This document shows, piece after piece, positions 6,323 through 62,382 of a stretch of DNA of 64,000 nt; position 1 is the stretch's first letter, and every line of letters begins with the position of its first letter. The notes under the pieces were generated by a model. That model saw only the letters and a program-made list of their open reading frames with translations. It had not been told where the DNA came from and ran no database searches. A program made the position numbers and the translations under genes. The stretch comes from Ignavibacteriota bacterium (lineage in GTDB: Bacteria; Bacteroidota; Ignavibacteria; UBA10030; SZUA-254). Where the stretch lies: positions 129,566 to 193,565 of the forward strand of contig JACREZ010000032.1 in NCBI GenBank assembly GCA_016212665.1, written 5' to 3'.

Positions 6323-6423
6323 TTTTTGCAAGAGCATTATGGTACAAGCGGAAACTCCATTACTCCAATAATCCAATAATCTATTACTCCATTACTCCAC
6401 TACTCCAACACTCCATTTCTCCG

Positions 6424-6464
6424 TTAGTCAACACTTCTTTGCACAGATTTTAGTTTTTGACTAA
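6424..6464. promoter_or_regulatory. Inverted repeat upstream of the PIN toxin gene, possible operator
   Basis: TTAGTCAA (6424-6431) and TTGACTAA (6457-6464) are perfect 8-bp inverted repeats ending 26 bases before the PIN gene start. A location between promoter and start fits autoregulation by a toxin-antitoxin complex; this is inference. Confidence 0.4.
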
Positions 6465-8399: not shown

Positions 8400-8730
8400 G
8401 TGATGCAACAAATCTCTACCACAATATTCTTGAACTCATCCCCCTTCCGAGGTTGTACAGAAAGCAACTTCGGTGTTCAGAATTCATCATTCGATATTCA
8501 TTATTTAGGGTAGTTCCAAAAACTTCAATCAAAAATGTTTAACCGCAAAGCACACAAAGAATACGCAAAGTGGCGCAAAGATAATAGGGTTTTTGGAACT
8601 ACCCTTTACTTGAATATCAAATATCGAACAAGGAATTTTAAATGATAAAGTACTTTTTAGACAACCTCTGGAGCGAAGGGGTTGAGTTAAGAATAACCAA
8701 TCAAACATCCGTTCTCTTCTCTCTTCCTTC
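8400..8730. other. Gene-free region made of nested palindromic repeats
   Basis: 331 bp between two plus-strand genes. A 97-bp palindromic element (8508-8604) is flanked by a further inverted pair of ATTCGATATTCA-type words (about 8487-8502 and 8611-8627), as though one element had entered another. No gene seen. Confidence 0.6.
8508..8604 (+). repeat. 97-bp MITE-like palindromic repeat, copy 1
   Basis: Ends are inverted repeats of about 16 bp, GGGTAGTTCCAAAAAC and its complement. The middle carries CGCAAAG words (AACCGCAAAG, ACGCAAAG, GCGCAAAG). A second copy in reverse orientation lies at 46123-46219, also 97 bp, with about 50 central bases identical. No coding capacity. Confidence 0.85.
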
Positions 8731-27834: not shown

Positions 27835-27962
27835 GGTTGTTCAAAAAGTCGTAGGCGCGACCTTTATTAGGGCATCCCTTTCGGACAAGGTTGCGTTTTT
27901 TTAAATAAATAACGCAGACATAAAGTCTGCGCCTACATGCCTAACGGACTTTTTGGACAACC
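27835..27962. repeat. MITE-like element: GGTTGTTCAAAAAGTC ends, GTAGGCGC...GCGCCTAC core
   Basis: Outer inverted repeats of 16 bp (15 match): GGTTGTTCAAAAAGTC at 27835 and GACTTTTTGGACAACC at 27947. Inside is a core (27851-27936) starting GTAGGCGCGACC and ending GACATAAAGTCTGCGCCTAC, with a further small hairpin. The same core, shorter, occurs inside a different outer frame at 52421-52483. No coding capacity. Starts 20 bp after the peptidase stop. Confidence 0.82.
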
Positions 27963-31370: not shown

Positions 31371-31443
31371 ATGGAGTAATAAAGTACTGGATAAAAGGAG
31401 TGTTGAATGTTTTACTCCAACGCTCCAAAAATCCAATACTCCG
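31371..31443. repeat. Simple-word hairpin built of GGAGT / ACTCC units
   Basis: Left arm AGTACTGGAT and GGAGTGTTG pair with CAACGCTCC and ATCCAATACT on the right. The same ACTCCAACACTCC words occur at 6349-6421, 62183-62219 and inside lspA at 61014-61043. Confidence 0.65.
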
Positions 31444-31473
31444 ATTCAAATTGTAAATATAATACTCAAGTTC

Positions 31474-32542: not shown

Positions 32543-32653
32543 AAAACGAGGCTGTCTCAAAAGTTGGTAGGTCTTCGACAGACAAGTCACGAAGCGATGC
32601 CATAGGCAAATGTCTGTCCTACCATCGTTCCACTTTTTGAGACAGCCCCGTTT
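32543..32653. repeat. MITE-like element with GGGGCTGTCTCAAAA ends
   Basis: Inverted ends AAACGAGGCTGTCTCAAAAG (32543) and CTTTTTGAGACAGCCCCGTTT (to 32653). An inner pair GGTAGG...CAGACA / TGTCTG...CCTACC forms a second stem. The outer ends match those of the element at 52389-52515, while the inner part is different. It lies between the stop codons of two convergent genes. Confidence 0.82.
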
Positions 32654-40321: not shown

Positions 40322-40394
40322 GCCAAATTTAACACAGAGCAAATTTTTCCACTCTGCTCCAGTTTCGGGGAACTTTTGTTCTATTTTCCCCTGC

Positions 40395-41050
40395 TTTTCA
40401 GCAATTCTTGGAAATTTTTGTACAATTCTTCCCAACTTTTCTGCAATTGTTGGAAACTTTTGGACAATTCTTCCCAATTTTCTGCAATTGTTGGGAACTT
40501 TTGTGCAATTCTTCCTAACTTTTCTGCAATTGTTGGAAACTTTTGCACAATTCTTCCCAACTTTTCTCCAATTGTTGGAAACTTTTGTGCAATTCTTCCC
40601 TACTTTTCTCCAATTGTTGGGAACTTTTGTACAACTCTTCCCTACTTTTCTGCAATTGTTGGGAACTTTTGTACAATTCTTCCTAACTTTTCAGCAATTC
40701 TTGGAAATTTTTGTACAATTCTTCCCAACTTTTCTACAATTGTTGGAAACTTTTGTGCTATTCTTCCCAACTTTTCTACAATTGTTGGAAACTTTTGCAC
40801 AATTCTTCCCAACTTTTCTACAATTGTTGGAAACTTTTGTACAACTCTTCCCTACTTTTCTGCAATTGTTGGGAACTTTTGTACAATTCTTCCTAACTTT
40901 TCTGCAATTGTTGGGAACTTTTGTGCAATTCTTCCCAACTTTTCTGCAATTGTTGGAAACTTTTGTGCAATTCTTCCCAACTTTTCTGCAATTGTTGGAA
41001 ACTTTTGGACAATTCTCCCCAACTTTTCTGCAATTCTGGGAACTTATGCC
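40395..41050 (+). repeat. Minisatellite: about 15 copies of a 42-bp unit
   Basis: The unit, in two halves, is CAATTGTTGGAAACTTTTGT + GCAATTCTTCCCAACTTTTC plus two bases; most copies are 42 bp and one near 40470-40500 is 41 bp. Variants (GGAAAC/GGGAAC, CCCAAC/CCCTAC/CCTAAC, TGCAAT/TACAAT) recur in blocks, suggesting expansion by segments. Because 42 is a multiple of three, long frames stay open on the plus strand (40376-41242 and 40488-41093), translating as 14-residue repeats such as AIVGNFCAILPNFS. On the minus strand some copies (CCCTAC variants) give stops. No ribosome site or family supports translation; I treat it as DNA repeat first. Confidence 0.9.
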
Positions 41051-41258
41051 CTATATTCACTTACTTTTGTGCAATATGAGGATTCTGAACTAATCAGTTT
41101 CTGGATCTCACAGTATTTTGTTGAATTTCAAGGGGTGTATTTAACTCTTCAAGGAAGAGGTGAATCGAACATATTTCTGAAAGGCAGAGTTTTACCACAG
41201 TTTGAGGAGCGTGCGAACGAGAACATAAATTTTTCTAAGTAGAACTATGTCAGTTTTG

Positions 41259-46122: not shown

Positions 46123-46219
46123 GGGTAGTTCCTAAAACACTATTTTTCTTTGCGCCACTTTGCGTATTCTTTGTGTGCTTTGCGGTTAAACATTTTCATT
46201 GAGGTTTTTGGAACTACCC
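46123..46219 (-). repeat. 97-bp MITE-like palindromic repeat, copy 2
   Basis: Same ends (GGGTAGTTCC...GGAACTACCC) and same length as 8508-8604 but in opposite orientation; about 50 central bases are identical. It starts 10 bp after the phosphatase stop and directly abuts an ORF fragment. Confidence 0.85.
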
Positions 46220-49641: not shown

Positions 49642-52359
49642 ATGATTCAATCTTTACATCGTCAATCGTCAATCTTCTTTATTTTCCTGCTCCTCTTCGT
49701 CCCCGCATCATGGGCAAACGAAAGCGATGAACCGAGCAGTGTTGATACCTCTATCAAGCGTCCCGCGTTGGAAGCGCTTCGTCTTACAAACTCCATCGTT
49801 CTCGACGGCAAACTTGATGAGCCGGAATGGCAACGGGCAGGCATTACAAATTTCACTCAAAAAGACCCGAATCAGGGACAGGCAGCGAGCGAAAAAACAG
49901 AAGTATGGGTCGCCTATGATGATGCCTCATTGTACATTGCTGCGCGATTGCATGACAAACCTGATTCCATCGTCTCCCGCATAGGACGCCGCGATGCAAA
50001 TATGAACTGCGATTGGTTTTATTTCGCGATTGATTCATATAACGACAAGCGAACAGGTTTTTATTTTGGTGTCTACCCGAGTGGCTCGATAACAGACGGA
50101 ACGTTGTACAACGATTCATGGGATGATAACTCGTGGGATGGAGTCTGGGATGCGGCAACAAGCATTGATGAAAAGGGATGGACAGTCGAAATGAAAATTC
50201 CTTATTCACAACTCAGGTTTCCCAAGCAAGATGAATATGTTTGGGGTGTGAACTTTGGCAGGTCCATCGAGCGAAAAAAGGAAGAATCATTTTTTGTGAT
50301 GGTTCCGAAAGGTGAAAGCGGCTGGGTCTCTCGCTTTGCGACTATGAACGGCATAAAAAACATCAACCCACCGACGCGTATGGAATTTCTCCCCTACACA
50401 GTTTCCAGTATGAAATTAACAAATCAGTTTTCTGACGGCGACCCGTTCAACAAAGCTGTTATGTTCAAAGGCAACCTTGGCGCCGATTTGAAACTCGGGC
50501 TCGGAAGCAACCTCACGCTCAACGCGACGCTCAATCCCGATTTCGGTCAGGTCGAAGTTGACCCGGCAGTTGTGAACCTTACTCAGTTCGAATCGTTCTT
50601 TCAGGAGAAGCGCCCGTTTTTCATAGAAGGCTCAGACTTTTTTAATTTTGGTTACGGCGGCGCAAACAATAACATGGGATTCAACTGGGGCAGTCCCGAT
50701 TTCTTTTATAGCAGAAGAATTGGTCGCTCTCCATCAGGTTCGGAACAGCACAGCGGTTATGTTGACCGTCCGGCAAACACGACAATTTTGGGCGCAGGAA
50801 AAATCACCGGAAAATTGAGTGATAATTTTGCACTCGGTGGGTTAGTTGCACTCACTGAACGGGAATATTCTAAAATTGATGATGGCGCTGGAAATCAATA
50901 CGATGACGTAGTTGAACCACTCGCAGGCTATTCTGTGGTTCGAGGTTTGAATGAATTCAATCAGGGAAACCAAGCAATCGGATTCATCGCTACAGGAACG
51001 AGAAGAGATTTGAATGAATCCTATCTGAAGCCATCATTCAATAAAAGCGCTTATGCGCTGGGAGTTGATGGTTGGACAAATTTAGATTCCGGTAAAACCT
51101 GGGTTTTGACCGGATGGGGAGCGGTAACACGTGTTGAAGGTTCCCGTGACCGTATCCTTGCTTTACAACAATCTCCTACTCACTATTATCAACGTCCTGA
51201 TGCAGAGCATCTCGAAGTTGATAGTAATGCAACCCAACTTTCAGGATACGCAACTCGTATCGCCATCAACAAGCAACAAGGAAATGTCCGTTTCAATACT
51301 GCGCTAGGAATTATCAGCCCGGGATTTGAGACGAATGATCTGGGATTTTTATTTAGAACCGATCAAATCAACTGGCATATATCCACTGGCTATCAATGGT
51401 ACGAACCGGATGATATGTTCAGAAGAAAAGGATTTCAGGTTGCAACCTTCCGGAATTTCGATTTTGAAGGGAATAAGTTTGGAGAAGGATATTTCTTCTT
51501 CTTTAACGCACAACTCCTGAATTACTGGACATTGAACGGCGATATCTATTTCAATAAAGGAATTCTTGATAATCGCATCACACGCGGCGGACCGTTAATG
51601 AAAACGACCGATAGATTCGGTGCATGGTTTGGTGTTGGAACGGACTCACGTGAAAAGATTGTCGGATTTTTAAGTTTCGATGGCGGGCGTTCAGAATCGG
51701 GCGCCTACAACTATTCGTTCAGTCCTGAGATAGAAGTGAAACCAAGTTCAAACATGAGTATTTCATTCGCCCCAAGTTACATGCGGAATACTGCTGTAGC
51801 ACAATATGTCCAAACCGTCGCTGACGGTTGGGCAGACAAAACGTTTGGCAACCGTTATGTCTTCGCACATATTGACCAACATGAATTTTCGGGTAATATC
51901 CGAATGGATTGGACATTCACACCAAAACTTTCGCTTCAGTTATTCTTGCAACCGTTAGTATCTGCCGGTGCATATAATAACTTCAAAGAACTGAAAGAAC
52001 CGCGCACGTTCACTTTCAATGAATATGGTGTTGATAACGGTTCTACCATTGCTTTTGTTGACTCAGTGAATACCTATGTTGTTGACCCAGACGGAAATGG
52101 CAGTGCCTCATCTTTCCTCATTTTAGATAATGGTCAGAAAAGAAAGCCAGATTTTAATTTCAAATCATTGCGCGGAAATGCAGTTCTACGATGGGAATAC
52201 TTGCCCGGTTCAACACTCTTCTTCGTGTGGACACGAATTGGTTCGAGATTTGAAAACAGAGGCAACTTTGAATTCGGAAAAGATTTTGGCGATTTGATAA
52301 CAAATCCGGACCACGAAGATGTCTTTTTAATAAAACTCGCGTATTGGATAACTCCGTAG
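49642..52359 (+). CDS. DUF5916 outer-membrane protein with N-terminal carbohydrate-binding-like domain
   Basis: 905 residues from ATG 49642; an earlier frame start adds only 11 codons. Signal peptide FFIFLLLFVPASWA. Residues about 40-240 form a CBM9-like domain (LDGKLDEPEWQRAG; VWVAYDDASLYIAARLHD; WTVEMKIPYSQLRF). From about 250 the DUF5916 region begins (LNATLNPDFGQVEVDPAVVN, FFQEKRPFFIEGSDFFNFG) and continues as a long series of amphipathic strands ending in ITP, predicted to be an outer-membrane barrel. Common in Bacteroidota and relatives; the transported or bound compound is unknown. The N-terminal codons contain the TCGTCAATCGTCAAT word also found at 14341. Confidence 0.88.
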   Translation: MIQSLHRQSSIFFIFLLLFVPASWANESDEPSSVDTSIKRPALEALRLTNSIVLDGKLDEPEWQRAGITNFTQKDPNQGQAASEKTEVWVAYDDASLYIAARLHDKPDSIVSRIGRRDANMNCDWFYFAIDSYNDKRTGFYFGVYPSGSITDGTLYNDSWDDNSWDGVWDAATSIDEKGWTVEMKIPYSQLRFPKQDEYVWGVNFGRSIERKKEESFFVMVPKGESGWVSRFATMNGIKNINPPTRMEFLPYTVSSMKLTNQFSDGDPFNKAVMFKGNLGADLKLGLGSNLTLNATLNPDFGQVEVDPAVVNLTQFESFFQEKRPFFIEGSDFFNFGYGGANNNMGFNWGSPDFFYSRRIGRSPSGSEQHSGYVDRPANTTILGAGKITGKLSDNFALGGLVALTEREYSKIDDGAGNQYDDVVEPLAGYSVVRGLNEFNQGNQAIGFIATGTRRDLNESYLKPSFNKSAYALGVDGWTNLDSGKTWVLTGWGAVTRVEGSRDRILALQQSPTHYYQRPDAEHLEVDSNATQLSGYATRIAINKQQGNVRFNTALGIISPGFETNDLGFLFRTDQINWHISTGYQWYEPDDMFRRKGFQVATFRNFDFEGNKFGEGYFFFFNAQLLNYWTLNGDIYFNKGILDNRITRGGPLMKTTDRFGAWFGVGTDSREKIVGFLSFDGGRSESGAYNYSFSPEIEVKPSSNMSISFAPSYMRNTAVAQYVQTVADGWADKTFGNRYVFAHIDQHEFSGNIRMDWTFTPKLSLQLFLQPLVSAGAYNNFKELKEPRTFTFNEYGVDNGSTIAFVDSVNTYVVDPDGNGSASSFLILDNGQKRKPDFNFKSLRGNAVLRWEYLPGSTLFFVWTRIGSRFENRGNFEFGKDFGDLITNPDHEDVFLIKLAYWITP

Positions 52360-52388
52360 ATTGGTTAGGGTAAATACGGATTAGACTG

Positions 52389-52515
52389 CTTGGGGGCTGT
52401 CTCACAAGTTAGATTTCACCGTAGGCGCAACCTTCATGGTTGCGTTTCCACATCAATAACGCGGACATAAAGTCTGCGGCTACATCATAATCAGACTTAT
52501 GAGACAGCCCCCAAG
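52389..52515. repeat. MITE-like element: GGGGGCTGTCTCA ends with GTAGGCGC core
   Basis: Inverted ends CTTGGGGGCTGTCTCACAAG and its near-complement to 52515 (20 of 22 bases). The core 52421-52483 runs from GTAGGCGCAACC, through a small hairpin (CAACC-TTCAT-GGTTG), to GACATAAAGTCTGCGGCTAC. The outer ends match the element at 32543-32653 and the core matches the element at 27835-27962, so this copy is a mosaic of the two. Confidence 0.85.
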
Positions 52516-52558
52516 TTTTTTTCTATCAAACTGTAAACACGTTCACCTCCCACATAAG

Positions 52559-52909
52559 TTATTTTTTCTTCGTTTTGAAAACAGCGAGTGCGCGGTCAAC
52601 TGTTTCGTACGTGTCGAAAACTTTTACTAACTGAGTAATCACAAAAAGGTTTTGCACGTTATCTCCGATGCGGGCAAGCAAAAGTTTTCCTCCTGCATCG
52701 CGTACTTTTCCAAGCGCGGAAATAAGTGAACCAAGTCCTGTGCTATTTACATATTTTACTTTTCCCAGGTCCATTACAATTTTTAAAATGCCATCAGCAA
52801 TCAGGCCCGCAACTTTATCTTTTAATTCAGTTGTTTCCGGGTCGCCGATTAGATCGCCTTTGAGTGTTAATATTGCAACATCACCTTCGAATTTTTCTTT
52901 AAGCGCCAT
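52559..52909 (-). CDS. STAS-domain anti-sigma-factor antagonist
   Basis: 116 residues: MALKEKFEGDVAILTLKGDL, then VMDLGKVKYVNSTGLGSLIS, in which the serine of VNSTGLG is the phosphorylation site, and a C-terminal Lys-rich tail. Such proteins bind and release anti-sigma kinases when dephosphorylated by PP2C phosphatases such as those at 18028 and 44718. No kinase gene is in the window. AAAGGAAC stands before the ATG. Confidence 0.92.
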   Translation of the reverse strand: MALKEKFEGDVAILTLKGDLIGDPETTELKDKVAGLIADGILKIVMDLGKVKYVNSTGLGSLISALGKVRDAGGKLLLARIGDNVQNLFVITQLVKVFDTYETVDRALAVFKTKKK

Positions 52910-60477: not shown

Positions 60478-61113
60478 ATGCGAATATTATTTCTCAGTCT
60501 TTTCATCGTCATCGCTGACCAACTCACAAAATTGTGGGTGAAAGGAATCAGTCTCCCTTCGCTTGGGATTGAGTTTCAGGGCTATCCCTACGGATACAGT
60601 CAACAAATTTGGGGAGATTTCCTCCGGATGACGTACATCGAAAATCCGGGAATGGCGTTCGGGATTGACATAGGTGGAAAATTATTTTTCTCCATCTTTT
60701 CCATTATCGCAAGCATCGGAATTATTTTTTATCTCTACAAGGTACGTGAAGAATCCATTTTCTTCCGACTTTCCCTTGCATTGATTCTCGGTGGTGCGGT
60801 CGGGAACCTGATTGACCGCGTTTTCTACGGAGTGATTTTTGATGAAGCGCCTTTATTCTATGGTCGTGTAGTTGATTTTATTGATGCTGATTTCTTTAAC
60901 ATCAATCTCTTCGGATATCACCTTAACCGATGGCCCGTGTTTAATATTGCCGATGCTTCTGTAACATGCGGCGTAGTATTGCTCCTCTTCGCTCAGAAAA
61001 CATTGAAGCAGGAAACTCCTGCACTCCAACAATCCATTACTCCGGACATCAATAATATGGGGTCTGCGGAATCTCCTTCTCTTCCCGAAAGTTCCCAAGC
61101 GCCTCAACTTTGA
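60478..61113 (+). CDS. lspA: Lipoprotein signal peptidase (signal peptidase II)
   Basis: 211 residues from ATG 60478, the first after the dksA-like stop. Four membrane helices with the catalytic aspartates in GNLIDRVFYG and FNIADASVT; IADQLTKLWVK and ENPGMAFGI are also typical. The last 40 residues form an extra hydrophilic tail whose codons include ACTCC/AACA words like those of the dispersed simple repeat (61014-61043). Inner-membrane enzyme that trims prolipoproteins. Confidence 0.94.
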   Translation: MRILFLSLFIVIADQLTKLWVKGISLPSLGIEFQGYPYGYSQQIWGDFLRMTYIENPGMAFGIDIGGKLFFSIFSIIASIGIIFYLYKVREESIFFRLSLALILGGAVGNLIDRVFYGVIFDEAPLFYGRVVDFIDADFFNINLFGYHLNRWPVFNIADASVTCGVVLLLFAQKTLKQETPALQQSITPDINNMGSAESPSLPESSQAPQL

Positions 61114-62115: not shown

Positions 62116-62182
62116 GAATATGGAAACTGTATGTCAAGCAAAGAAAAAGGAGTGAATTACAACATCTTCACCTTTCTCCGGA

Positions 62183-62219
62183 ACTCCCAAACTCCAACAC
62201 TCCAATACTCCAATACATT
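62183..62219. repeat. ACTCCAACACTCCAATACTCC simple-word repeat
   Basis: Tandem ACTCCAA/TACTCCAA words between rluD and the next gene, of the same type as at 6349-6421 and 31371-31443. The rest of the 267-bp gap (62116-62382) shows no gene. Confidence 0.6.
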
Positions 62220-62382
62220 ACTTACTCTTTCCACACAATAACATTCGTTTCTTTTTCCAACCATTAGGAAAAGTTGAACGTTTTGCACTTTTTACAATCG
62301 GATTGTGTTGAGATAATGTTGCTTTTACCCAAAGCATTTTGTAAGTTTCTATCAGTCAATTACAATAATTCAATAATTCCAA

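Follow-up and report, generated by a model that had tools for sequence, protein, structure and literature searches.

How does a short palindrome come to share its outer ends with one relative and its core with another? The question is raised by an element at 52.4 kb in the window, the whole stretch of 64,000 nucleotides that was analysed (C32:129566-193565), which belongs to a genome of 3.9 Mb in 45 contigs. A first-pass annotation of this DNA explained the mosaic by elements that nest within one another and are mobilised in trans. This reading is largely right; what it overlooked is that the core is a RAYT/REP repeat, i.e. a second, unrelated mobile system, and that insertion displaces a hairpin. 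The explanation favoured here, with a probability of roughly 0.8, is that the element is a MITE of the IS1182 type which took up REP dimers and spreads through the replacement of hairpins, those of its own relatives among them.

A chimeric palindrome and its relatives

The locus forms an imperfect palindrome (52389-52515) whose arms, 52389-52446 and 52458-52515, are 74% complementary; the element is non-coding and sited between convergent genes. Comparison of copies, with boundaries taken from an empty orthologous site, defines a 119-bp chimeric MITE on the forward strand (52393..52511), in which arms of a type termed E1 (end sequence GGGGCTGTCTCAAAAG) enclose a REP-dimer core of a type termed C1. 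It opens with a 28-nt left arm, GGGGCTGTCTCACAAGTTAGATTTCACC (52393..52420, forward), followed by a 63-nt core (52421..52483, forward) that reads GTAG-hairpin, spacer, hairpin-CTAC, a REPIN-like inverted REP dimer, and by a 28-nt right arm on the reverse strand (52484..52511), which terminates in an inverted E1 end as judged from copies and from comparison of the arms. The two core hairpins, both supported by covariation, are REPa (CGCAACC-TTCAT-GGTTGCG, 52426..52444, forward) and REPb (CGCGGAC-ATAAA-GTCTGCG, 52460..52478, forward). The filled site folds at -69.7 kcal/mol (z -10.2), with seven T directly after the stem; a terminator scan of 52200-52700 found none with a tool that limits loop size, and folding does show a stem and U-tract.

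Both the ends and the core have counterparts in the window, as had been noted at first pass. Sequence comparison finds E1 ends (GAGGCTGTCTCA...TGAGACAGCCCC) again in a related MITE at 32.5 kb (32548..32649, forward), around a different core, C2 (GTAGG..GACAGACA../..TGTCTGTCCTACC), and the C1 core again, with an extended left loop, at 27.8 kb (27835..27962, forward), where the ends differ and are of a type termed E2 (GGTTGTTCAAAAAGTC); the right half of the 27.8-kb element is 75% identical to 52445-52509. Five genes beside the three elements were scanned and none is a transposase, in agreement with the annotation. It is not the case that only these copies exist: BLAST with the 52.4-kb element gives 65 matches in its own genome (E down to 6.5e-46 for full-length copies), of which ten, besides the element itself, span nearly its whole length at 85-93% identity, and close copies also in the congeners G001 and G002. 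In the own genome, the half-core CGCAGACATAAAGTCTGCGGCTAC is matched 23 times versus 0 for its reversed control, and the 17-base E1 end 61 times versus 17 for its control. The family is short, multicopy and dispersed over unrelated loci.

Ends and cores prove interchangeable well beyond the window. At least five cores, C1 to C5, are found between E1 ends or near variants of them in this genome; core C2 reads GTAGGACAGGCATTCCTGCCTGTC..., C3 TGTCATTCCTGCGAAAGCAGGAATCC...GGGAATGACA, C4 ATTCGACATTTGATATTTG... and C5 GTAGAGTCC...GGACTCTAC, and the C1 core has other ends in other genera, namely GAGGTTGTCCAAAAAGTC in G040, GGTTGGCTAAAAAG in G006, GGGTTCACTAATAA in G009 and GAGACGTCTGAAAAATC in G024. 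Re-assortment of arms can be read directly from the sequence of at least one recombinant, L010, in which an E1 left arm and a right arm typical of E2 are joined through the common C1 core. Measured from its outer end up to GTAG, almost every arm is 18-19 or 27-29 nt long regardless of end or core; this constancy speaks for common descent or for a constraint on spacing, and against random capture.

Further repeats were seen in the window. A 97-bp MITE of another kind (8508-8604 and 46123-46219) has ends GGGTAGTTCCAAAAAC and core AACCGCAAAGCACACAAAGAATACGCAAAG, and its 8.5-kb copy lies in the centre of a palindrome of the C4 core type. An 8-bp unit of type NNACTCCA is repeated in short arrays at 6352-6430, 31404-31450, 61005-61043 and 62173-62227, and a 21-bp tandem repeat of ~800 bases lies inside an ORF (40347-41168).

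Origins of the ends and of the core

The outer 16 nt of the left arm equal an IS1182-type terminal inverted repeat, GGGGCTGTCTCA(A/C/T)AAG, and the arm matches IS ends both in the own genome and in a complete IS elsewhere. Three contigs of the own genome (C4, C12 and C31) break ~139 bases inside one common IS sequence that starts GGGGCTGTCTCAAAAGGGCAGCCCC, has 16-17 nt in common with E1 ends and leads into an ORF start, MPTAIFKPYSPNQLQLLP, of which ~18 N-terminal residues are visible; the sequence GGGGTTGTCTCAAAAGGACAGCCTC, at the start of contig C4 and the end of contig C8, is probably the other end of this IS. A scan of GTDB genomes with a 25-mer of the IS end gave 27 hits. One of them, L099, represents a complete IS of 1.73 kb; its first 25 bases are identical to the own-genome IS end, and its 519-aa transposase matches the NF033551 (IS1182) profile at 468 bits (cut-off 270). 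At the level of sequence, the identity of the element's ends with those of an IS is therefore a direct observation. A full-length transposon with the same ends, which the annotation had suggested looking for, was found in L099 and not in the own genome, where the IS body is absent from the assembly and the IS1182 assignment consequently rests on the ends and ~18 N-terminal residues. In the own genome, the NF033551 profile gave a weak 29.8-bit match to an IS5-type element, and Pfam DDE_Tnp_1_6 gave no match because the IS has collapsed out of the assembly. Among 39 other genomes of the order there is no close match to the IS end, and the IS1182 loci examined in G005, G008 and G010 are without E1 ends. 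Mobilisation in trans, proposed from the IS-like look of the ends, gains support from their match to an IS, the visible start of which resembles that of an IS1182 transposase, and we infer that a transposase of this type would be the enzyme that moves E1 elements.

Several observations on related ends deserve mention. The 27 GTDB contigs (L096-L122) with the 25-mer GGGGYTGTCTCAAAAGGRCAGCCYC come from Bacteroidota, Bacillota and others; the 25-mer often occurs without a nearby IS body and with an A-run and T-run on its flanks, as if it were a leftover solo terminator, and MITE-like units of 97 bp and 214 bp with GGGGYTGTCTCAAAAGGRCAGCCYC ends are found in L113 and L110. The own genome also contains a complete IS5-family IS (L244, C34:25403-25723 plus flanks; NF033578) with ends GGGTTCACTGAAAAAGT. 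In G009 the outer ends around the C1 core are similar to those of this IS, which suggests that the ends of the C1 core may follow different IS families in different genomes. A further contig end of the own genome (L014, C18:1-220) falls within ACTTTTTACACAGTCTCGATGCC, a sequence that resembles the ends of the G005 IS1182 element and is located within the left REP hairpin of one C1 element.

The C1 core consists of two hairpins, each behind a GTAG tag, that face each other as in REP dimers. GTAG and CTAC are invariant in 33 distinct cores, which were chosen for those letters; in the stems of these cores, 21 cells are doubly compensated versus 3.2 in shuffles, and 95% of cells are paired versus 20-38% when the stems are slid. 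Besides this covariation, the assignment draws on the REPs that flank RAYT genes at L066, L067 and L068: C1 hairpins flank RAYT genes in G005, G034 and G027, from three other families of the order, and these genes match NF047646 at 82.5-84.6 bits (curated cut-off 80). The C5 core, enclosed by E1 ends at L181, is an exact match to the REP next to another RAYT of G005 (L282), so that two RAYT REP families have been placed between E1 ends. The identity of the core with RAYT-flanking REPs can thus be observed directly, and the route by which REP dimers entered between IS ends is a matter of inference. The own genome has no cognate RAYT for C1; none of its 7 Y1_Tnp loci is flanked by C1 REPs or belongs to the C1 RAYT clade (best about 23-29% identity), and own-genome RAYTs were rejected on these grounds as movers of the C1 core.

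Insertion by replacement of hairpins

When the joined flanks of a chosen set of elements (6267 nt) were searched in the congeners G001 and G002, four sites were informative; the orthologous sites of L002 and L006, which had diverged too far or were one-sided, are not counted. At the G002 orthologue of the 52.4-kb site, ...CGCTTGGGGCTGAAATGAGTTTCTGCCCCAAGTTTTTTT..., an intact terminator hairpin (-19.3 kcal/mol) stands without E1 arms. This empty site (L248, GCTTGGGGCTGAAATGAGTTTCTGCCCCAAGTTTTTTT) reads CTTGGGGCTGAAATGAGTTTCTGCCCCAAG-TTTTTTT, and the window reads ...GCTTG, the 119-bp element and CAAGTTTTTTT..., so the terminator loop and upper stem were swapped for the element and the T-tail was retained. 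CTTG (52389..52392) is the surviving left foot of the target stem, and CAAG with the T7 tail (52512..52522) is the right foot and tail of the original terminator. Since the lowest four stem pairs survive, the cut was made within the stem and not at its foot.

The L009 element replaced AGTCGGTTAATAAAAAACCGACT ahead of a T-run, as judged from the empty site in G002, where a second copy of the site has a hairpin with a T-run. The L005 element took the exact place of a CCCACAACT...AGTTGTGGG hairpin bounded by TTAAAA and CTAT, and in G002 this hairpin itself seems to have received a different MITE. For L082, an element of G002, the comparison is with a within-genome paralogue with diverged flanks, which has a CCGTTGGC...GCCAACGG hairpin. 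Comparison of sequences thus documents hairpin replacement directly at four orthologous or paralogous sites. Nesting of one element in another, as the annotation had envisaged, is likewise seen: two other copies of the C1 element carry another MITE at the REPa hairpin position, an E1-C3 element in L015 and an E1-C2 element in L022, each exactly in place of the left REP hairpin, between GTAG and TTCC. The cut lies exactly at the stem feet in L005, L015 and L022, compared with the four basal pairs left at 52.4 kb.

In the flanks of 46 E1-type elements, direct repeats of at least 3 bases are at chance level, and inverted complementarity exceeds that of 1000 shuffles (4 nt: 1.91 vs 1.21, sd 0.14). 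The target duplications that the annotation had wished to define were searched for over the copies and did not appear, because insertion replaces a hairpin without duplicating the target. Strong enrichment of A/T-runs over all element feet was not found; the enrichment is modest, and terminators are therefore just one class of target. IS1272, of the IS1182 family, is likewise reported to replace stem-loops without target duplication, with terminators among its targets (PMC5678879, PMC4923244).

Under the favoured explanation, the element would be a MITE of an IS1182-family IS, with its terminal inverted repeats on either side of an inverted pair of GTAG-tagged REP hairpins derived from an unrelated RAYT (HUH, Y1) system. 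An IS1182-type DDE transposase, supplied in trans, would mobilise the MITE, and the target would be recognised as a hairpin, not as a sequence; its loop and most or all of its stem would be deleted and the MITE substituted there, leaving no target duplication. MITEs and REP cores, being hairpins, would become targets in turn and give rise to nesting, and nesting plus recombination between copies with a common core would produce the mixed ends and cores and explain why these are interchangeable. The element is a long hairpin with a G+C-rich foot and the T-tail is retained, so that a working terminator probably remains and terminator function was probably kept after replacement.

Hairpin replacement alone leaves the constant arm lengths of 19 or 28 nt unexplained. 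A tentative alternative, which we hold to be possible and rather unlikely, is a composite of two enzymes acting as a 'terminator replacer', in which DDE terminal repeats and a RAYT REP dimer would be kept in fixed register, with arms of either 19 nt or 28 nt, lengths that differ by about one helical turn, irrespective of the sequence of end or core. Such an element would swap itself for host terminator hairpins, provide termination itself and diversify via hairpin-for-hairpin exchange with other elements. More doubtful still is a REPIN mobilised by a RAYT, with the E1 arms merely the target palindrome of REP dimers, as for the Anabaena GTAG-15 dimers. In its favour, the core is a genuine REP dimer of the RAYT kind that occurs without E1 arms in other families, and REP dimers within palindromes are on record (PMC3733652), but the empty 52.4-kb site has no E1 arms, which means that arms and core came together and displaced a different hairpin; moreover, E1 arms match IS ends and also surround cores C3 and C4, which are not GTAG REPs, and the own genome is without a RAYT of the C1 clade.

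There is very little room for a classical MITE, for instance one derived from an IS5- or IS4-type element, that makes short direct duplications of its target. The 97-bp MITE with GGGTAGTTCC ends in the window does have 4-bp target duplications (TTTA and TACA), and an IS5-family IS with GGGTTCACTGAAAAAG ends is present in the genome, but the 46 E1 elements have no direct repeats above chance and the empty sites show hairpin loss. Immobile structural or regulatory repeats (terminators or RNA stabilisers), spread or converged by selection and gene conversion, would suit the strong hairpin with its T-tail, the site between convergent genes and the evident re-assortment of arms, but are equally implausible, because insertion is required by the near-identical copies found at unrelated loci, by the presence or absence of elements between orthologous loci, by nested copies and by common IS ends.

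Relation to known systems

The preferred reading, a hairpin-replacing MITE of the IS1182 type, places the element close to the IS1272/IS1182 family, in which target duplication is likewise absent and a hairpin target, often a terminator, is deleted and replaced (PMC5678879, PMC4923244), and its terminal repeats are identical to those of the IS1182-family relative L099. Unlike IS1272, the unit here is non-autonomous, 100-130 bp long and built around a foreign REP core; it targets its own relatives, and its host is not a staphylococcus but a bacterium with type IX secretion tails.

With GTAG REPs and REPINs (PMC3733652), the core shares the GTAG tag, the imperfect hairpin and the inverted dimer, and the RAYT genes of relatives are flanked by C1 repeats; in contrast to RAYT REPINs, the dimer is without a matching RAYT in the genome and is carried between terminal repeats of the DDE type. 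Longer palindromes with REP dimers inside them are on record for cyanobacteria and Halothiobacillus (GTAG-15 of A. variabilis and CGTC-1 of H. neapolitanus), where the palindromes were read as insertion targets and no explanation of their origin was offered (PMC3733652). The present arrangement is alike, but here the palindrome matches IS termini and arrived jointly with the dimer. A likeness by description, and a lead only, is that to the mosaic intergenic repeats of Neisseria, with their interleaved palindromic families (mentioned in PMC3733652).

What looks new is the self-nesting and the way in which the ingredients, each already known, are combined. A literature search for MITEs with stem-loop replacement of the IS1272 type found no paper, and to our knowledge no earlier MITE has been shown to insert in this way. 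Replacement at the level of MITEs with natural before/after pairs, and the exchange of terminator for terminator, are apparently undescribed as far as the literature found goes. With such an exchange, insertion would do almost no harm, and this would account for the build-up of such repeats between convergent genes. Hairpin-targeting elements that land in other palindromic repeats and replace parts of them offer a simple answer to the frequent mosaic nature of bacterial intergenic palindromes, in which unrelated repeat families are combined. In the literature found, hairpin-replacing transposition had been the province of staphylococcal IS1272 and its composite transposons; the elements described here, with several natural before/after pairs, carry it over to MITEs of a distant lineage.
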